Virus record (IMG/VR): IMGVR_UViG_3300046522_000730
Coordinates: 1-43,610 of that record
Reading direction: 5' to 3' (one strand)
Length of the DNA: 43,610 nt
DNA from: a virus
Shown: positions 1 to 28,639 of the stretch, in pieces
Layout: every line of letters starts with the position of its first letter
Numbering within the stretch: the stretch's first letter is position 1
Translations under genes and position numbers: made by a program
Notes under the pieces: model-generated
Databases searched by the model: none
What the model was told of the DNA's origin: nothing
Seen by the model: only the letters and a program-made list of their open reading frames with translations

Positions 1-1659
1 TCAGGCACGCCGGGCCAGCGGCGCTTCGGCGCGAGCGAGCGGTATCGCCTTGCCTGGCTTCGTCGGCACCAGGCTGGCGTGGGCCTTGCCCTGCGCGCCG
101 GCCTGCGGCGGCAGCTTGAATACGGCCAGCGCCTTGGCCATCGCCTGCGCCTGCACATCCAGTACCCCGGTGGCGGCCGACGCCTCCTCGACCATCTGCG
201 CGTTCTGGCGGGTCACCTCGTCCAGTTGCATGATGGCGTCCTTGACCTGTTTGACGCCGCTGCTCTGCTCGCGCGTCGAACCGCTGATTTCACCCATGAT
301 GGAGGCGACGCGGCCGATGGCCTCGATCACCGCATCCATATCCTGCCCGGCCGTGCCGGCCATGCCGGCGCCGACCTCGATCTTGCCGGCCGAGGTGTCG
401 ATCAAGGCTTTGATCTCCTTGGCGGCGGCCGCGCTGCGCTGGGCCAGGTTGCGCACTTCGCTGGCGACGACGGCGAAGCCGCGGCCTTGTTCACCGGCGC
501 GGGCCGCTTCGACGGCGGCGTTCAGCGCCAGGATATTGGTCTGGAAGGCGATGCCTTCAATCAGGCTGATGATGTCGACGATCTGGCGCGAGGAATTGCT
601 GATGTCGTTCATGGCCGTCACCACTTGCGCCACCGCCACGCCGGTGCGTTCGGCCAGCGCGGTCGCCTCGCTCGCTACGCCGCTGGCGGTGTTGACGTTG
701 TCGGCGGTCTGGCTGACCGTGTCGGTGATCTGGCCCATGTTCGCCGAGGTCTGTTCCAGGTTGGCCGCCTGTGCCTCGGTGCGTGCCGACAGGTCGACAT
801 TGGCGGTGCGCACCAGCGTGGTGGTGCTGCGGGTCAGCGTGAAATTGCTGCGGATGTCGACCAGGATGGAGGCCAGGTTCAGGTTCAGCTGGCGCACGAA
901 GGCTTGCAGCTGGCCCAGCTCGTCGTGACGGTCGACCGCCATGCGCGTGGTCAGGTCGCCGCCGGCCAGGATGCGGGCGGCATTGATGCTGGCCTGGATA
1001 GGCGCGACCACGGCCCGGTGCAGGTTGCGCCAGCCGTACAGGGCCAGCGCCGCCATCAGCAGTGCCTGCACATGCAGGGCGCTGTCGGAATAGGGCAGCA
1101 CGGCATGGGCCGCCATGGACAGCGCCAGCGCCGCCATGCTGCCGAAGCACAGGGCCAGTCGCTGCGCCAGCGTGATGTCGCGCAAGGCGTTGGCCAATCT
1201 GCGCCAGCCGCGCGCGGCGGCGGCGCCGCGCAGGATGCGGATGCCTTCCGGGTTGCTGCCCTTGACGGTGCGGTAGAGCTGCTCGGCTTCCTGGATCTGT
1301 TCGCGCTTGGGCTTGGTGCACACCGACATGAAGCCGGTCGTCCTGCCCTTTTCGATCACCGGCGTGACGTTCGCAATGCACCAGAAGAAACCGCCATCCT
1401 TGCGGCTGTACTTGACCAGGCCGCGCCATGGTTCTCCCGACAGCACCGTGCGCCACATGTCGGCGTCCAGCTCGGGCGGCATGTCGGCGTGGTATAGCAC
1501 ATTTTGCTTGCGTCCGTTCAGTTCCTGGTCCGCGAAACCGCTGGCCTCGATGAAGGTGGCGTTGGCGTAGGTCAGATGACCCTGGAGGTCACTTGTGGTG
1601 ACGATGGGCTTGCCGTCTTCAAGGACGGTTTCGCTGCTGGTCGCATGGGTGGTGCGCAT
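1..1659 (-). CDS. PAS-domain methyl-accepting chemotaxis protein (Aer-like)
   Basis: A 552-residue receptor that would signal to CheA/CheW at the inner membrane. Seen in the sequence: an N-terminal PAS domain (about residues 15-118, with the N/A-T-F-I-E and GGFFWC segments typical of Aer-type sensors), two close hydrophobic stretches at about 167-210, a HAMP-like linker, and a long MCP signalling domain at about 275-510. That domain contains the near-invariant hairpin around [20 protein letters not shown]. There is no large periplasmic ligand domain, so it probably senses redox or energy state through the PAS fold, as Aer does. The ATG at 1659 has AGGA just upstream. This is host chromosome outside the prophage. 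The ligand is unknown. Confidence 0.93.
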
Positions 1660-1785
1660 GGATGGTCCTGTGCATGGGATTGACGAATGTGGTCTGCATA
1701 CTAACAGAGTTAAGTGTCAAGTAATTTCCCAATAGTATGATTTTTGCACGGGCGCAACACTGTTTGTTACAGTCGGGACTTACCG

Positions 1786-3234
1786 CTAGTGGTCGTCGGG
1801 ATCGGTCCACAATTCCATGTACTGTTCCGACCGGTTCAGCAGGTCCTGGTCCATGTTTGCCAGGCGGTCCACGGGAGGATGAATTGGGTGCTGGTTGAAG
1901 GCGCTGTAGCCCAGGCCCATGCGTCCGTCCGGGATCGCATAGCCGGTGAATTCCAGGATCGTCGGCATCAGGTCGAAGTGCAGCAACTGCTTGCGGTTCG
2001 GCGCCGGCGCGTCTTTCGAGATGAAGCTGTTGAAGATGGTCCGCTCGGAGAGCTGCGACAGCTGTGGCGTCAGCGGGTTCTTGCGTGACAGGTGGTCGCC
2101 GAGGATGACGATGTTGGTGTTTTCCAGATAGCCGTTGTCCTTGGCATAGCGCACGAACTCGGCCACCTCTTGCGCGGTGCAGGACACCACGCCGTCGAAC
2201 CCGGAAAACCCTTTCTTCGCGCAGCTGTCCGACAGGTGGCCTTCCGGTTCGTGCGTGTCGACGGTGAGCAGCGTCAGGTTGAATTTCTGGCCCGAGCCCG
2301 ACAGCTCACGCAGCTTGGTTTTCGCGCGCGCAAACAGGTCGGCGTCGTACAAGCCCCAGCCGTTCATGTCGCTGGCCGCCACGCCGCTCTTGAGCCACTC
2401 GTCGCGGCCGTAGACTTCATGGTAGTGATGCTGGTTGAGGAACTTGTCCTTGCCGGCGAAGTTGGTCGAGGCACCGCCCATGAAAACGTTGCGATAGCCG
2501 CGCTGCTCCAGCAAGTCGGTCAGGCAGACCGCGTTCTTGAGGAAGGAGCTGAGCGCCTGGCCCTGCGTGTTGCCGTCGAAGATGGTCACCCGTTCCAGCG
2601 GCACGCCGCATTGCGTCGCCACGATGGCGGCGATGGTCCAGCCGGTGCCCGGCGCTTGCTGATAGTCGGCGAAACTGATTCCGTTCAGCGCGGTGAGCGG
2701 CGCCAGTAGATCGCGCTTGAAGGCGGACTTGGCGGAATAACCCTGCTCCAGGCTTTCGACATAGATCAGCACCAGGTTCTTCGGCTTTTGCGCCGCCACG
2801 GCGACCGACGCCGGCTGAACGTAATTGGCGCCGAAATAATCCGGGCCGAAATCGGAGGACAGGTATTTGAAGGCGGAGACGTCGCAGACCCAGAAGGTCG
2901 TCGCGCCCAGTACCAGCAGTTGCGGGAACCAGCGATGGATGCGGTAGCACAGCACGCGGCAACACTGCGGCGCCCGGGCGATGGCATGCCGCACCTTGGG
3001 CTCAACGTAAAACAGCAGCGCCAGGAAGACCAGCGGCGCCAGTACGCACCAGCGGATGAAGCGCCATGTGACCGCAGGGTCCACGGTGTCCATCAGCTCG
3101 ATGCCAAAATTGACATGGTAGGCAATCTGGTTCAGGTCGGGCTGGCCGAACGAACGGTGCAGCCAGTAGCTGAAGCAAAGGGGAAAAAGCGCCAGCAAGT
3201 ACAGGCTGCTGCGTATCAGACGGGGACCGGTCAT
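1786..3234 (-). CDS. sulfatase-fold membrane transferase, OpgB/LTA-synthase-like
   Basis: An integral membrane protein of 482 residues, counting from the ATG at 3234 (an upstream in-frame TTG at 3246 is possible; neither has a clear ribosome site). The N-terminal third has three or four hydrophobic segments. The rest is an alkaline-phosphatase-superfamily domain. The segment GTGWTIAAIVATQCGVPL matches the nucleophile region of phosphoglycerol transferase I (OpgB), with the Thr as the likely nucleophile. The later VDTHEPEGH and ILGDHLSR segments supply metal-binding Asp and His. Such enzymes move phosphoglycerol or phosphoethanolamine from a lipid to periplasmic glucans or lipopolysaccharide; the acceptor cannot be told here. 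Host gene next to the prophage insertion site. Confidence 0.85.
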   Translation of the reverse strand: MTGPRLIRSSLYLLALFPLCFSYWLHRSFGQPDLNQIAYHVNFGIELMDTVDPAVTWRFIRWCVLAPLVFLALLFYVEPKVRHAIARAPQCCRVLCYRIHRWFPQLLVLGATTFWVCDVSAFKYLSSDFGPDYFGANYVQPASVAVAAQKPKNLVLIYVESLEQGYSAKSAFKRDLLAPLTALNGISFADYQQAPGTGWTIAAIVATQCGVPLERVTIFDGNTQGQALSSFLKNAVCLTDLLEQRGYRNVFMGGASTNFAGKDKFLNQHHYHEVYGRDEWLKSGVAASDMNGWGLYDADLFARAKTKLRELSGSGQKFNLTLLTVDTHEPEGHLSDSCAKKGFSGFDGVVSCTAQEVAEFVRYAKDNGYLENTNIVILGDHLSRKNPLTPQLSQLSERTIFNSFISKDAPAPNRKQLLHFDLMPTILEFTGYAIPDGRMGLGYSAFNQHPIHPPVDRLANMDQDLLNRSEQYMELWTDPDDH

Positions 3235-3454
3235 TTTTTGGGACAAGTAGGTGGATCAAGTACCTATCTTCCCAATTGCAATTGTCTGCAACATTGCCGG
3301 CGGCCACCGTTTTGTATCGAAGTGTTGTGTCGCGCTTACATGGATTTACGTCCGGGGATTTGGACGGCGTCGGTTTGCGCGAAATCGCCCACGGCAACCG
3401 CTCCGGCGCCGGCATTTGTCAACCACGTGCAAAGCCGCGTAGAATGCGTGGCAC

Positions 3455-3528
3455 GCGGGTGTAGCTCAATGGTAGAGCAGAAGCTTCCCAAGCTTACGAC
3501 GAGGGTTCGATTCCCTTCACCCGCTCCA
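3455..3528 (+). tRNA. tRNA-Gly(CCC)
   Basis: A full cloverleaf can be folded by hand: acceptor GCGGGTG with CACCCGC, D-stem GCTC with GAGC, anticodon arm AAGC-TTCCCAA-GCTT, T-arm GAGGG-TTCGATT-CCCTT, and an encoded TCCA end. The seven-base loop TTCCCAA places CCC at positions 34-36. The 27-43 pair at the base of the anticodon stem is G-A, a mismatch. The gene points into the prophage, so the 3' end of the tRNA is at the junction, as expected when a tyrosine integrase uses a tRNA as attB and restores its 3' end. Confidence 0.95.
3490..3528. other. probable attL in the 3' half of the tRNA-Gly gene
   Basis: Inferred: everything to the right is phage-like, everything to the left is host-like, and the nearest integrase lies at 5277-6308. 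I searched the right end by eye for a second copy of the T-arm and acceptor sequence and found none, so attR is probably beyond 43610. The exact core cannot be set without the other copy. Confidence 0.5.
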
Positions 3529-3678: not shown

Positions 3679-4146
3679 CTAGTTAGATTTATCGGACGAT
3701 TGCTTTTGCTCTGCATCGGCAACAGGGGCGGTAACTCTGAACGTTGGAATCTCCAACAAAGGCAACAATGCCTGGCTAAAGCCCGCACGATTTGTCAGGG
3801 AATAGACATTCTCCCGAACGTACGGGTAGAGGATGAGAGGGGCGTTGTGGTCCGCCCAGTGGGTAATTTTATCGACAGGGAAGGCGCTTTCGTCGACCTT
3901 GAATACACCCACCACTTCAACTTTCAGTTGAAGTGGACCATTATCATCGTCTTCGCCGGAGACGACTCGCATCTTCACATTGATTCGCTGTTTCTCAGAA
4001 TTGTAGTTAGACGAAGCTGTTTCGATAGAAAACTCGCCTAGCTCTGTGTCCTGCGGAGCGGTTACGTCAACCTTAATGGCGAGCTCAACCACACGCAAAC
4101 TCACCAATTGAATTGCGTGTGGCTTATATTGGCCGTTATTAGACAT
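3679..4146 (-). CDS. SecB-like chaperone of a toxin-antitoxin-chaperone (CmdTAC-like) system
   Basis: A 155-residue protein with the SecB fold signature near its C-terminus: ILYPYVRENVYSLTNRAGF at about 105-123, then LLPLLEIPTF. This corresponds to the LFPYxRE...G-F-P...L-x-P-x-N-F region of SecB. The N-terminal half has the alternating beta pattern of SecB, and the last 15 residues are polar. Its ATG overlaps the antitoxin stop (TAATG), so the two are translationally coupled. In TAC systems the SecB-like partner binds the antitoxin C-terminus and keeps it from being degraded. This is probably a dedicated chaperone, not the export SecB, because it sits third in a T-A-C operon within a prophage. 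Confidence 0.85.
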   Translation of the reverse strand: MSNNGQYKPHAIQLVSLRVVELAIKVDVTAPQDTELGEFSIETASSNYNSEKQRINVKMRVVSGEDDDNGPLQLKVEVVGVFKVDESAFPVDKITHWADHNAPLILYPYVRENVYSLTNRAGFSQALLPLLEIPTFRVTAPVADAEQKQSSDKSN

Positions 4147-4448
4147 TAAGCCGCCAGCGCGTAAGAATTATCGTTTACTGCCAACGTCACATATTCAAAC
4201 GAATCCGGCGAGTGACTCTTCGATTCAGTGTATTGCTCTTTATCGCTCTTAAAAGCAAAATGAGCGTGAATAAAAAAGTAGCCGCGCGACAGAGTCCAGT
4301 GCGAAAGAAATTCCCGTGCAGTTCGCATAGCTACGGCAAGAGGACCGTCCTTATGCTTCTCCAAATCTGCACGAAGTTCAGCGGCAGACAGGGTTTCCAT
4401 TTCATCGAGCGCTATTGCCAATGCTTCTCTTACCGAGAGCGTACTCAT
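4146..4448 (-). CDS. antitoxin of a CmdTAC-like system, with SsrA-like C-terminal degron
   Basis: A 100-residue protein lying between toxin and chaperone. The N-terminal half is helical and charged (REALAIALDEMETLSAAELRA). The middle is aromatic and could contact the toxin. It ends in AVNDNSYALAA, closely similar to the E. coli SsrA proteolysis tag AANDENYALAA, including the terminal YALAA that ClpX and ClpA read. GAGGAG, seven bases before the ATG, overlaps the last codons of the toxin; the gap to the toxin is three bases. Known for TAC modules: the antitoxin C-terminus is a chaperone-addiction segment exposed to ClpXP when the chaperone is absent. The function is assigned from operon position and this tail; I recognise no DNA-binding domain. 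Confidence 0.75.
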   Translation of the reverse strand: MSTLSVREALAIALDEMETLSAAELRADLEKHKDGPLAVAMRTAREFLSHWTLSRGYFFIHAHFAFKSDKEQYTESKSHSPDSFEYVTLAVNDNSYALAA

Positions 4449-4976: not shown

Positions 4977-5093
4977 CAAAAGAACACCTTTAGATTTTTT
5001 GGGGAAACCTGTGCTCAATGAGTAGACGGTAACATAGCTATGAAAATTTCGCTGTGGCCCAACTCACTTACAGGATCACCCTATCGTTTTAGC

Positions 5094-5276: not shown

Positions 5277-6308
5277 TTACTTGGTCGGATCAACCACCTT
5301 CCCCCGACGAAGATAATGCCGCTGCGTCGTCTTGACGCTGTCGTGGCCGAGCAAATCACTTGCCGCCTGGTCGCCGCGCAGGTCACTCGTGTCATCGGCA
5401 GCCTTGGCACGCAGGTCGTAGAAGTGGAATCCCTCGATCGCTTTCTTCATGGTCGGCGCCGCAGCGGCGGCCGCCTTTCGGGCCGCGTCGAAATGGTTGC
5501 GCAGCACCGGCGCCGTCAGCCGTTTCCCGTTCGTATTCGTCAACAGTGCACCAGTGACGATCTTGTGTGTCGCCTTTCTCGCGCGGATTCGTTCTACCAA
5601 CTCGTCCAGCTTGCCGGCGATAACGATCCTCAGAGGCTGCTGCGTTTTCGCCTGGGTCACTATGAGGTGCCCGTCGATGATGTCGTGCTCGGTCATGCGC
5701 AGCGTATCAGCGGGCCGCTGGCCAGTGAGATAGGCTAGATCCATTGCGTCGCGCAGCGGTGCGCTGGCCTGCGCGTACACAGCGGCGTACATCGCGTCGG
5801 TGATGTAGACGGTGCGCTTGGCCAGCGCGTGCCCCCTGATGCCCTCGCAGGGGTTGGGGAGGTCGGTATAACCCCAGCCGCGCGCCTGGTTCCACATGGT
5901 CGAAAATAGGCGCTTGCACCTATTGGCCGTCGTTGGCTTGTCCGCATGATCGTCGAGGAATATGCGGATGTTCATCGGCTTTATCTGGTCTAGCGGCGCG
6001 TCCTGAAAGGACGCCATCAAGTGCTTGATGTCCGATGCGTACATGCGAGCGGTACTGCTGGCCAGCTTTGGTACCGCAGCGGTGAGATACTTTTTCTGGA
6101 CGTCGGAGAAGGTGGCGCTACGGTGCGGCGCGTCGACGACATTGAGGTCTGCGTACTTGCGCAGCGCCAGGATAAAGTCGCTGCCGAGCGGGATTTCCTT
6201 GCGCTTGCCGTCGACGGTGCTGCGGAGATAATAATAGGTCTTGCTACCCCATGTGCGCTTGCGCATGTGGGGTGGGAGATTCAAATTAACGGTTGGCTTT
6301 CGACCCAT
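5277..6308 (-). CDS. int: tyrosine-recombinase phage integrase
   Basis: A 343-residue integrase that would carry out site-specific recombination at the tRNA-Gly gene. N-terminal arm-binding region about 1-65, core-binding SAM-like domain about 66-155 (SSTARMYASDIKHLM), catalytic domain about 165-343. Catalytic residues visible: R198 (TGQRPADTL), K221, R300 (FYDLRAKAA), H322 (LLGHDS) and the nucleophile Y332 (TQRHYLRRG). At the usual first-His position of the HxxR box there is Y297. Its start overlaps the DUF4224 gene by 23 bases. Unusually, the toxin-antitoxin-chaperone operon lies between it and the attachment site. Confidence 0.95.
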   Translation of the reverse strand: MGRKPTVNLNLPPHMRKRTWGSKTYYYLRSTVDGKRKEIPLGSDFILALRKYADLNVVDAPHRSATFSDVQKKYLTAAVPKLASSTARMYASDIKHLMASFQDAPLDQIKPMNIRIFLDDHADKPTTANRCKRLFSTMWNQARGWGYTDLPNPCEGIRGHALAKRTVYITDAMYAAVYAQASAPLRDAMDLAYLTGQRPADTLRMTEHDIIDGHLIVTQAKTQQPLRIVIAGKLDELVERIRARKATHKIVTGALLTNTNGKRLTAPVLRNHFDAARKAAAAAAPTMKKAIEGFHFYDLRAKAADDTSDLRGDQAASDLLGHDSVKTTQRHYLRRGKVVDPTK

Positions 6309-8650: not shown

Positions 8651-9421
8651 TCAAACGGTGATACGAATTTGCTCGGCCGGCGGCTGGTCGGCCGTCTCCT
8701 TGACCTGCATCGCCCGCATGCTGCCGGTGCGCAGGTTCACGAACGCGCCGTGCCAAGTGAGCCGGCCGTGCCGGAAGAACTCCCAAAGGATATGCAGCGC
8801 TGGTGTCACGATCGACTGATTGACGAACAGTTCCTGACGCTCCAGCGCCTCGGCCAGTCCGCAGCTGGGGGTGTCGTCCTCGACGGCCGTCGCGTCGACC
8901 AGCTCGGGCAGCAGGTCGTAGGGGCTGGGTAGGCGCGCGCTGCCGACCGGGCTGGCGCTGACGGCGCGCAGTTCGCCGAACAGTACCTGGCCGTCGGCCG
9001 CGCGGTTGCCCAAGTCCATCAGGTACATCGGGCAGTTGCGCTTGAACGTACGCATGATCTCGTGCCGCGACTTAGCGCTGTCGACGCAAACAATGACGAT
9101 GTCCGCGTTGAGCTTTTGCCAGTCGTAGCGGCCGAAGTACGCCTTCCAGGTCAGACCGAAATACGCGTTGACGCGATTGACCAGGGTGTGCGCCTTGCTC
9201 GCGCCGATGTCGAATGCGCCGAATAGCTGGCGGCCGATGTTGGCCTCGCTCACGGTGTCCGGATCGAAGGCGCAAACGGTCAGGCCCGGGTGGTCCAGCG
9301 CGACCATGGCATGGTTCAGACGCGCGAGGCCTGTGAGCATTTGGGAGCCGTTGCCGCCGCAGCCGACGAGGGCAATCTTGACCTGGTTCTGCAGCAGCTT
9401 GGCGGGAATAAGGTGTGGCAT
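8651..9421 (-). CDS. PRTRC system ThiF-family (E1-like adenylating) protein
   Basis: 256 residues from the ATG at 9421. E1/ThiF nucleotide-binding loop VGCGGNGS (19-26), acidic AFDPD (51-55) for ribose binding, the arginine-finger region NIGRQLF (61-67), and a late cysteine in DDTPSCGLAEALERQ, C187, at the position expected for the thioester Cys. This proline-Ser-Cys-x-Leu-Ala-Glu block is typical of the PRTRC ThiF family. E1-like enzymes adenylate the C-terminal Gly of a ubiquitin-like protein and pass it to an E2. Genes for candidate Ubl (12206-12601), E2 (10238-10978) and JAMM protease (9445-10224) are in the same operon. The reaction has not, to my knowledge, been shown for PRTRC. Confidence 0.85.
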   Translation of the reverse strand: MPHLIPAKLLQNQVKIALVGCGGNGSQMLTGLARLNHAMVALDHPGLTVCAFDPDTVSEANIGRQLFGAFDIGASKAHTLVNRVNAYFGLTWKAYFGRYDWQKLNADIVIVCVDSAKSRHEIMRTFKRNCPMYLMDLGNRAADGQVLFGELRAVSASPVGSARLPSPYDLLPELVDATAVEDDTPSCGLAEALERQELFVNQSIVTPALHILWEFFRHGRLTWHGAFVNLRTGSMRAMQVKETADQPPAEQIRITV

Positions 9422-9444
9422 GAAATTTTCCGTGATCGCGATGG

Positions 9445-10224
9445 TTAGCCGAAGATCTTTTCCGCCGGCACCTGGATGGGCAGGTACAGGCCCAGCACGC
9501 ACAGGCGGAACGCTACCGTCGGCATGTTCTGGTCAAGATTACCGAATACGCCGGCGATCTTCACGGTGCCGGCGTCGTCGCCGTCATCGGTCTCGCTGAA
9601 GAACGCGGGCCCGTGGCCATGACTGTGCAGATCAATCGCGACGCTCTCACTGCCGTCCTCGGCCAGCTCGACCTGTTCATAGCGGATGCTGCTCGCTGTC
9701 GCCTCGCCAATGACCTTGGGCAACTTGATCGACCACTGTTTCAGGTTGCTGTTCCAGATCAGGCTTGCTGCGGATTCGAGCGGCGCCGCCTCCATGGCGT
9801 GCACGGCGAACTCGCGCATCTGCTCAAGTGCGGTGCCCAGCTGGCCGAACGCCAGCTCCACCTTGTTCGCAAGCAGGCCATAGGGGATGCGCACCGAAGT
9901 ATGCTCGGCCAAGCGGTGGATGAAGTGGAGCCATGGCCGGCGCACTTCCAGATAGAGGCCGTCGGCGGCCAGCAGGAAGCGGTGGCCAGCATCCTGCAGC
10001 GGGTGGAACGCACTGTGCGCTGGTACCGCCGCGATAGGGGCGGCCTTCAGCAGCGCCACGTCCAGCTGGAATTTCTCGGCATCGATGTTCTGTTCGTCGA
10101 CCGCCAGCACCATTGGGCGCTGTTCTGCGATCGCGCGCTCGGTTTGTTCCGCGAAGGCGGCATACGATGCGCGCGTGATGTCGAGCAGCTCGTCAAATTT
10201 CATGATCAGGTCTTGGCCGTTCAT
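9445..10224 (-). CDS. PRTRC system protein A (JAMM/JAB metalloprotease-like)
   Basis: 259 residues from the ATG at 10224, preceded by GAGGA. The C-terminal half has an exact JAMM motif: H200-S-H202, then seven residues, S210, two residues, D213 (HSHGHGPAFFSETD). This binds zinc in deubiquitinases such as Rpn11 and in bacterial JAB proteases. The N-terminal half has no recognised fold. Protein A of PRTRC cassettes is known as the Mov34/MPN/JAB member. With E1-, E2- and Ubl-like neighbours it is the expected peptidase that would mature or remove the Ubl tag. All metal ligands of the HxH-S-D core are present, so it is probably an active enzyme. Confidence 0.82.
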   Translation of the reverse strand: MNGQDLIMKFDELLDITRASYAAFAEQTERAIAEQRPMVLAVDEQNIDAEKFQLDVALLKAAPIAAVPAHSAFHPLQDAGHRFLLAADGLYLEVRRPWLHFIHRLAEHTSVRIPYGLLANKVELAFGQLGTALEQMREFAVHAMEAAPLESAASLIWNSNLKQWSIKLPKVIGEATASSIRYEQVELAEDGSESVAIDLHSHGHGPAFFSETDDGDDAGTVKIAGVFGNLDQNMPTVAFRLCVLGLYLPIQVPAEKIFG

Positions 10225-26563: not shown

Positions 26564-28639
26564 ATGCCAGCACCTACCGCAATAACGAAAGAACCGGCCA
26601 AGTGGTACACGATCCGCGCATCCGCGAAGCCGGTTGCCGGCGCCGTGCAGGCCGCCTCCAGCGCCGAGATCCTGATCTACGGCGATATTGGCGAGAGCTG
26701 GTACGACGACACCATCGCCGCCAAGGACTTCGTACGCGAGGTGGCGGCGCTGGACGTCGATGCGATCACGGTGCGCATCAACAGCTTCGGCGGCTCGGTC
26801 ACCGACGGCATCGCCATCTTCAACGCATTGAAACGCCACAAGGCCACCGTCACCACCGTGGTTGATGCCATCGCCGCGTCGGTCGCCAGCCTGATCGCGA
26901 TGGCCGGCGACTCGATCGAGATGGCGGAGAACGCGCTGCTGATGATCCATGCCCCGTGGATGCAATGGGTATCCGGCAATGCCGTCGTTCTGCGCGAATA
27001 CGCGGACATGCTCGACACCTATTCAGACGCCATGGCGACCAGCTACGCGTCGCGTTCGAACGACAAGGCCGGCGCACTGGCCCTGCTGCAGGACGGCAAG
27101 GACCACTGGTACACCGCCGATGAGGCGCTGGCGAGCAAGTTCATCGACAAGGTGGTCGCCAGCCTGCCGCTGGCGGCATCCGCCCACATCAAACAATCCA
27201 TCCAGGCACGCTACGCCTCATTCCCTGAGCAGCAGGAACTGGCGGCGCTTGCTGTAGCAGCTTTACCAACCCCCAAGAAGGAGAACATGACCATGTCCAC
27301 CCCAGCTCCAGCGGCACCAGCTGCTCCAGCCGTCGACGCCATCCAGGCCGCAGCGAGTGCCGCAGCAGTTTCCGCACTGGCAGCGGACAAGGCTCGCCGC
27401 ACCGATATCACCGCCGCATTCGCCAAGTTCTCGGCGCATGAAGGCATGGCGGCCATTCAAACCGCCTGTCTGGACGATCAGAACTGCACCGTGGACAACG
27501 CGAACGCAAAAATCCTGGCCCAACTGGGCAAGGACTCGGCACCGATCGCCGGCACCCATATCATCACGCTGGAAGACTCCCGCGACAAGTTCCGCGCCGG
27601 TGTCAGCGCGGCACTGCTGGCCAAGGCCAAGCTGGGCAAGGATGACGGCGCCAACAACTTCCGCAGCTATGGCCTGATGGACTTGGCTCGCGAATGCCTG
27701 GCGCATGCCGGCGTCAGCGCGCGCGGCATGGACAAGATGGCGCTGGTGGCCGCGGCCTTTACCCACACCGGCAGCGACTTCCCCTTGCTGCTGCAAAACG
27801 TGGCAGACAAGGCCATGCTGAAGGGGTACGAAGAAGCCGACGAAACCTTCCAGAAATGGACTTCCAAGGGCGTGCTGGGCGACTTTAAGCCAGGCAAGCG
27901 TGTTGACCTGAATACGTTCCCAACCCTGGCCAAGATCCAGGATGGCGGCGAGTACACCTACGCGACCGTCGGTGATCGCGGCGAGACCGTACAGCTGGCC
28001 ACCTACGGCAAGAAGTTTTCCATCACTCGCCAGACGATCATCAATGACGACCTGGACGCGTTCTCGAAAATCCCGCGCCGCATGGGGCGCGCGGCGATCC
28101 GCACCATCGGCGACCTGGTGTACGCCATTCTGACCAGCAATCCGGCCATGCGCGATAACGTCGCCCTGTTCCACGCCACCCACAAGAATCTGATGGCCGG
28201 TTCGGGCATTAGCACCGGTTCGGTCGATGCGATGCGCGTCCTGATGGGCCGGCAGACCGACGGCAATGCTGTGCTGAATATCCGTCTGGCGCAGCTGCTG
28301 GTACCGCTGGCACTGGAAGGCACCGCCAGCGTCGTGCGCGACAGCGAATTCGAGGTTGGCGCTGCAACCAAGAACAACACCACGCCGAACTTCGTGCGCG
28401 GCACGTTCGAGGTCATTTCCGATGCCCGCCTGGATGTCGCGTCCGCGACAGGCTGGTACGGCACCGCGAACTCCAATACCACCGACACCGTCGAAGTGAG
28501 CTACCTGGACGGTGTCGAAACGCCAACCCTGGAGCAGCAGGACGGCTGGAACGTCGATGGCGTCGAGTTCAAGGTCCGTATGGACGCCGGCGTGGCGCCG
28601 CTGGACTTCCGCACGATGGCGGCCAACCCCGGCGCCTAA
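26564..28639 (+). CDS. prohead protease/major capsid protein fusion
   Basis: 691 residues. Residues 1-230 or so are a ClpP-type prohead protease: INSFGGSV (72-79), nucleophile S106 in DAIAASVASL, H129 in LLMIHAPW. Then a Pro/Ala linker with an internal ATG (about 243-262), a scaffold-like helical stretch (AFAKFSAHEGMAAIQ), and from about 350 a major head protein domain with FPLLLQNVADKAMLKGYEE, GKKFSITRQTIINDDLDAF and ALFHATHKNL. Such fusions are known in some phages. Cleavage by the protease during prohead maturation would release the capsid protein. The internal AAGGAGAAC-ATG at about 27290 could also allow a separate capsid product. Confidence 0.9.
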   Translation: MPAPTAITKEPAKWYTIRASAKPVAGAVQAASSAEILIYGDIGESWYDDTIAAKDFVREVAALDVDAITVRINSFGGSVTDGIAIFNALKRHKATVTTVVDAIAASVASLIAMAGDSIEMAENALLMIHAPWMQWVSGNAVVLREYADMLDTYSDAMATSYASRSNDKAGALALLQDGKDHWYTADEALASKFIDKVVASLPLAASAHIKQSIQARYASFPEQQELAALAVAALPTPKKENMTMSTPAPAAPAAPAVDAIQAAASAAAVSALAADKARRTDITAAFAKFSAHEGMAAIQTACLDDQNCTVDNANAKILAQLGKDSAPIAGTHIITLEDSRDKFRAGVSAALLAKAKLGKDDGANNFRSYGLMDLARECLAHAGVSARGMDKMALVAAAFTHTGSDFPLLLQNVADKAMLKGYEEADETFQKWTSKGVLGDFKPGKRVDLNTFPTLAKIQDGGEYTYATVGDRGETVQLATYGKKFSITRQTIINDDLDAFSKIPRRMGRAAIRTIGDLVYAILTSNPAMRDNVALFHATHKNLMAGSGISTGSVDAMRVLMGRQTDGNAVLNIRLAQLLVPLALEGTASVVRDSEFEVGAATKNNTTPNFVRGTFEVISDARLDVASATGWYGTANSNTTDTVEVSYLDGVETPTLEQQDGWNVDGVEFKVRMDAGVAPLDFRTMAANPGA

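Follow-up and report, generated by a model that had tools for sequence, protein, structure and literature searches.

A prophage antitoxin ending in a near-complete copy of its host clade's SsrA tag: a putative CmdTAC-like toxin-antitoxin-chaperone module from Burkholderiales

The antitoxin of a toxin-antitoxin-chaperone (TAC) module on a Burkholderiales prophage ends in AVNDNSYALAA, a nearly complete match to the tmRNA-encoded (SsrA) tag of the host clade. The prophage lies in IMG/VR virus record IMGVR_UViG_3300046522_000730, whose whole stretch of 43,610 nucleotides is called the window here. The module is probably an anti-phage system of CmdTAC type, in which the tail would act as a host-tag degron that is masked by the chaperone until phage infection triggers release of the toxin. 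The antitoxin would restrain a PARP-like ADP-ribosyltransferase toxin, and its flexible C-terminus, by copying the host tag, would mark it for the host's SsrA disposal route, carried out by ClpXP and probably the adaptor SspB. A SecB-like chaperone from the neighbouring gene would spare the antitoxin by covering the tail, until occupation of the chaperone by a phage protein uncovers the tail; degradation of the antitoxin would then release the toxin. An antitoxin with an LAA end and ClpP-dependent loss is already known in CmdA; what the sequence adds is a near-complete, host-matched tag with the putative ClpX half and most of the putative SspB half.

By its sequence, the module is a TAC, comprising a predicted PARP-like toxin, an antitoxin, and a SecB-like chaperone of CmdTAC type (Table 1). 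The three genes are adjacent on the minus strand in the order toxin-antitoxin-chaperone (4976–3679), an order that recurs in plasmid, phage, and genome relatives, and the chaperone start overlaps the antitoxin stop (TAATG). The Pfam SecB score of the chaperone exceeds the curated cut-off, and searches against the PDB return weak matches to SecB and to Rv1957, the M. tuberculosis TAC chaperone. Since a SecB-like chaperone overlaps its stop and a PARP-like toxin precedes it, the middle gene is well supported as the antitoxin. TAC systems are further defined by toxicity that is neutralised solely when the chaperone is present.

The toxin length is counted from an ATG; starting at the TTG at 5018 would give 188 residues. 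Direct searches give the toxin no family match. Among 18 toxin relatives, His8 and Tyr36 are invariant and Glu123 is nearly so, and in a PDB profile search the profile of these relatives matches PARP3 (E 0.0077) and PARP10 over the same region. The nearest Foldseek matches of the AlphaFold2 model (pLDDT 89) are weak ones to NAD-using toxins, cholix, and PARPs, none below E 0.001; the modelled fold looks like that of an ADP-ribosyltransferase.

Phage structural genes are present in the window, and the module lies between a tRNA-Gly gene and a tyrosine integrase gene; it is therefore carried as cargo near an end of the integrated prophage, which is of tailed-phage type. No attR, the second copy of the tRNA end, was found within the window. 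Elsewhere, the prophage carries PRTRC-system genes (ThiF family protein and protein A; 8651–10224, minus strand), a system usually described from plasmids, and a major capsid protein fused to a ClpP-like prohead protease (26564–28639, plus strand).

Table 1. Features of the module and its surroundings, in window positions.
Feature	Positions	Strand	Evidence
tRNA-Gly (CCC), probable attachment site next to module	3455..3528	+	ARAGORN, Rfam
SecB-like chaperone, 155 aa	3679..4146	-	Pfam SecB 6.4e-9; PADLOC PD-T4-9_C (CmdC) 1.5e-12, PDLC04072
TAC antitoxin, 100 aa	4146..4448	-	translation; N-terminal body homologous in relatives
SsrA-tag mimic AVNDNSYALAA, eleven codons	4149..4181	-	translation; TAA stop at 4146-4148
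Toxin, PARP-like ADP-ribosyltransferase (predicted), 174 aa	4452..4976	-	relatives' conserved residues, PDB profile, model
Tyrosine integrase	5277..6308	-	Pfam Phage_integrase 1.6e-12

Translation of the antitoxin gene gives the C-terminal end TLAVNDNSYALAA. A sequence-only reading had placed AVNDNSYALAA at this terminus and counted eight matches to the E. coli tag AANDENYALAA; translation and codon coordinates agree with the placement, and a recount gives the same 8/11 (positions 1, 3, 4, and 7–11). SspB contacts residues A1–D4 and Y7 of the tag, and ClpX contacts the final three. Set against the E. coli tag, the window tail departs only at positions 2, 5, and 6: A1, N3, D4, and Y7 of the SspB-binding AANDENY are retained with Val rather than Ala at position 2, and the terminal Leu-Ala-Ala carries the free carboxylate of an SsrA-type degron. 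In the AlphaFold2 model of the antitoxin, the N-terminal half (about residues 1–50) is helical with pLDDT above 75, and the C-terminal half, which holds the putative degron, is of low confidence, falling below 50 at residues 82–100, as expected for an exposed tail.

The E. coli count was correct, but the tag of the host clade is the closer comparison. Positions 1–3420 of the window are bacterial flank, with best matches to genomes G470 and G558 of one Burkholderiales family; the left flank (chemotaxis gene, sulfatase) has 83%/80% and 81%/78% DNA identity to them. This family-level search with the flank is the sole basis of the host placement; when 300 Burkholderiales were searched at the DNA level with the flank plus the tRNA, matches fell chiefly on the tRNA, and searching 30 genomes for the sulfatase protein found nothing. 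The tmRNA tag is AANDNSYALAA, counting the first Ala as the one tmRNA carries, in 16/16 near relatives (G470, G558, and 14 others), and an SspB gene is present in G470 and G558. Because this is the tag of the flank relatives, the window tail matches the host-clade tag at 10/11 positions, sharing N5 and S6 where E. coli differs, the tag being that of the 16 near relatives. The comparison with a host tag that the sequence-only reading had proposed therefore strengthens the likeness.

Although LAA endings alone are common, chance or compositional artefact is next to impossible as the source of the resemblance and was rejected. The pattern N-D-x-x-[YF]-A-L-A-A-stop has a single match in the window and none in 100 dinucleotide-preserving shuffles. 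With independent residues and assumed amino-acid frequencies, a random C-terminus would reach 8/11 against the E. coli tag with a chance of ~1e-7 and 10/11 against the host tag with a chance of ~3e-11. An independent ortholog, moreover, carries all eleven residues: the antitoxin of G450, the nearest chromosomal ortholog (toxin 51%, antitoxin body 45%, and chaperone 59% identical), ends AANDNSYALAA, 11/11 against the host-clade tag, which was taken from the 16 near relatives without G450.

Such near-exact identity with host-clade tags could also be the scar of recombination with a tmRNA gene, for example after integration at ssrA, with no selected role, and integrating elements do often use tRNA or tmRNA genes. 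This origin is very unlikely. Synonymous codons differ at most positions of the tail, and the serine codon, which is TCT in the window, AGT in G450, and TCG in tmRNA, differs even in codon family, which indicates that what has been retained is the peptide, and these codons were the ground for rejecting a recent copying of DNA from tmRNA. Rfam detects no tmRNA-like sequence nearby, and the element sits at tRNA-Gly. The tails also persist while the antitoxin bodies diverge, and are lacking in relatives that have no chaperone gene.

Toxin relatives on plasmids, in phages, and in genomes mostly sit in the same triad, and the toxin is found in 4/262 genomes of the host family. Antitoxins of other Proteobacteria end AANDERFALAA, PANDERFALAA, or SANDDNYALAA. 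The first of these ends is carried by a Polaromonas plasmid antitoxin and by those of L280 and L564, and, with L067 and L091 counted as one genome, it is the tmRNA tag of five among 30 sampled Burkholderiales genomes. Further tails are SANDDEYLLAA and PANDDEYLLAA in Acinetobacter, AANEEPFPLAAS in Thiodictyon, AANDVSYLMAA in G513, and AANDHLYLMAA in a Burkholderiaceae MAG; the last is the end of L009, whose host tag is AANDNSYALAA. Host matching of the tail is clear in the window's group and probable in the ERF group, and it does not hold generally, as L009 illustrates. Plasmid modules have further defence genes as neighbours: an 'abortive infection family protein' in Acinetobacter (L003/L004) and a type ISP restriction enzyme in Polaromonas (L002). 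In the triads L118 and L597 the toxin is a different and more distantly related one; the L118 antitoxin ends SANDSWYQISEAA.

These relatives were reached mainly through toxin, chaperone, or tail. On viral contigs, neither the window antitoxin alone nor the toxin alone retrieved anything as a query, the antitoxin because its body is too variable; the antitoxin gave only chance matches on plasmids and phages, and divergence in the chaperone alignment was too great for a pattern scan. In E. coli genomes searched with L141, a TAC was reached in 2/5,426 through a weak 39-base DNA match, and CmdA of ECOR22 was not recovered. In one E. coli (L586; NZ_CP073589), a CmdTAC-like triad is flanked by a replication endonuclease gene on one side and a prophage portal gene on the other.

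The sequence-only reading had proposed aligning homologues to see whether the end is conserved; AA is the only pair invariant across the antitoxins, and the full mimic is not universal. It is accordingly possible, though distinctly less probable than the host-tag degron, that only the final hydrophobic-Ala-Ala matters, as a generic ClpX degron closing the chaperone-addiction segment, with AND..Y owed to common descent or chaperone binding and SspB uninvolved. Simpler ends speak for this: Psychrobacter KKYLLAA, Pseudomonas QSCLAA, Azotobacter YFAAAA, and an E. coli TAC DDTELDLAA, the E. coli, Pseudomonas, and Psychrobacter modules using LAA or similar despite SspB in their hosts. The published work on CmdA, likewise, names only LAA as the ending (PMC11618068). 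On the other side, antitoxin bodies are ~19% identical on average, and positions 5–7, where free to vary, follow the host-clade tag (NSY in the window and G450, ERF in the Burkholderiales group); the average by which tails outlast bodies is partly circular because the tail was what led to 4/9 of the sequences (L141, L280, L537, and L564). In addition, where no SspB gene was detected, the ends are hydrophobic-AA only (PWPLAA and LSFAA; modules of hosts G003 and G005).

The AND motif is also found in two distant chaperone clades. In the chaperone tree, AND..Y tails belong both to the window's group and, separately, to L141 of the true CmdTAC group, with well-supported branches between them; the antitoxin of L141's sister ends YQYQIAA. 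Separate clades together with differing codons make selection on the peptide a better explanation of these tails than DNA copying.

The distribution of tails relative to chaperone genes bears on the masking step of the host-tag degron. Tails end AA in 15/18 antitoxins with a separate chaperone gene, these 18 having been found through toxin or chaperone, versus 0/5 relatives without one (Fisher p 0.0017, kinship ignored). Among the three chaperone-linked exceptions, L005 carries an extra Ser; L021, which has a chaperone and ends LVA, is outside this count. The chaperone-less count is not independent, since these relatives are mostly one lineage (Thiomargarita-type bacteria), and it includes L020, whose antitoxin homology is unsure. 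In Thiotrichaceae/Thiomargarita (L012, L014, L015, and L016), the same PARP-like toxin accompanies a homologous antitoxin that lacks the AA tail, and no SecB-like gene was detected; in L014 the toxin-antitoxin pair is repeated in tandem. A Desulfobacterales MAG (L008:3507–4112) joins the antitoxin N-terminal domain and a SecB-like domain in one protein without an AA tail, next to the same type of PARP-like toxin, a natural tail-less, chaperone-fused TAC. Tail-less homologues, which the sequence-only reading had named beforehand as speaking against the idea, thus do exist, but mostly without a separate chaperone gene, and a tail that is present with the chaperone gene and missing without it is what a chaperone-covered degron predicts.

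Scans of IMG/VR, in several forms, for DNA coding N-D-x-x-[YF]-x-L-A-A-stop approached the tail from the opposite direction. Among at least 466 loci listed, at least 324 lie in tmRNA genes and at least 133 in no 50-aa ORF; among the matches listed, at least 10 form the 3' end of an ORF that is 50 aa or longer. Two of these 10 are permuted tmRNAs, and four have neither an Ala before Asn-Asp nor a SecB-like neighbour. The other four (L141, L280, L537, and L564) are real proteins ending AND..[YF]ALAA, and among the matches listed all four (4/4) adjoin a SecB-like gene; therefore, a full SsrA ending on a protein would mark a TAC antitoxin. Permuted/alpha-type tmRNA genes occur on the viral contigs L353 and L486, the former also bearing many tRNAs and a GOLLD RNA.

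Taken from its sequence, the antitoxin suggests a protein built for destruction once its protecting chaperone is lured away. A near-complete host-clade tag, kept amid change of the body and present almost only on TAC antitoxins, probably steers this antitoxin into a specific, adaptor-assisted disposal route. Phage defence and ribosome rescue would thereby be linked in a way open to test, with SspB predicted to be a defence factor. The tail may limit which hosts suit a given TAC, and it gives an easy sequence mark by which to recognise TAC antitoxins, proteins that are short and variable and that often lack annotation. A further and rather doubtful idea is that the antitoxin poses as one of the host's trans-translated proteins, tying the module to how heavily the SsrA disposal route is burdened: SsrA-tagged products, their amount shifting as phage wrecks mRNAs, would compete for SspB-ClpXP or for the SecB-like chaperone. 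If so, the module would sense failed translation as well as phage structural proteins, and the tail would adjust to each host's tag.

The closest known system is CmdTAC (PD-T4-9) of E. coli ECOR22, which has the same order of toxin, antitoxin, and SecB-like chaperone (Vassallo et al. 2024, PMC11618068). Its antitoxin CmdA ends LAA and undergoes ClpP-dependent loss if CmdC is absent or has bound the T4 capsid protein, which displaces CmdA from CmdC; loss of CmdA frees CmdT (PMC11618068). An SsrA-type degron on a TAC antitoxin, a SecB-like cover, and a phage product as trigger, as the sequence-only reading had proposed, agree with this mechanism and with the comparative evidence above (PMC11618068). 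The two modules share an ADP-ribosyltransferase-type toxin, predicted in the window, and an antitoxin ending LAA. The window chaperone matches the CmdC model PD-T4-9_C (1.5e-12), and its toxin matches none of the PD-T4-9_A (CmdT) models, which L141 matches at 1.5e-39; the module is therefore classed as CmdTAC-like rather than CmdTAC, though the predicted fold of the toxin looks like that of an ADP-ribosyltransferase. CmdTAC is further characterised by ADP-ribosylation of mRNA at GA dinucleotides. The E. coli TAC antitoxin found here ends DDTELDLAA, against ten of eleven host-clade residues in the window, and no report of a host-matched full SsrA tag on a TAC antitoxin was found in the open-access literature.

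The M. tuberculosis HigB1-HigA1-Rv1957 TAC, with its chaperone-addiction segment (ChAD), also relies on a SecB-like chaperone; its toxin is an mRNA endoribonuclease, unlike the predicted PARP-like toxin of the window. The ClpX degron and the chaperone site of HigA1 share a C-terminal segment (PMC8165232). The higBAC system of E. coli C496 is activated by the lambda major tail protein, which disrupts antitoxin-chaperone binding and leads to abortive infection (summary in PMC11980606); its toxin is of RelE type, as against the PARP-like toxin here. The SsrA tag of E. coli combines an SspB-binding motif with end residues bound by ClpX (PMC8138137). The window tail has nearly the same eleven residues, including the ClpX end together with most of the putative SspB-binding segment; the tag is added to failed products, whereas the tail is encoded in the gene of a regulated protein.
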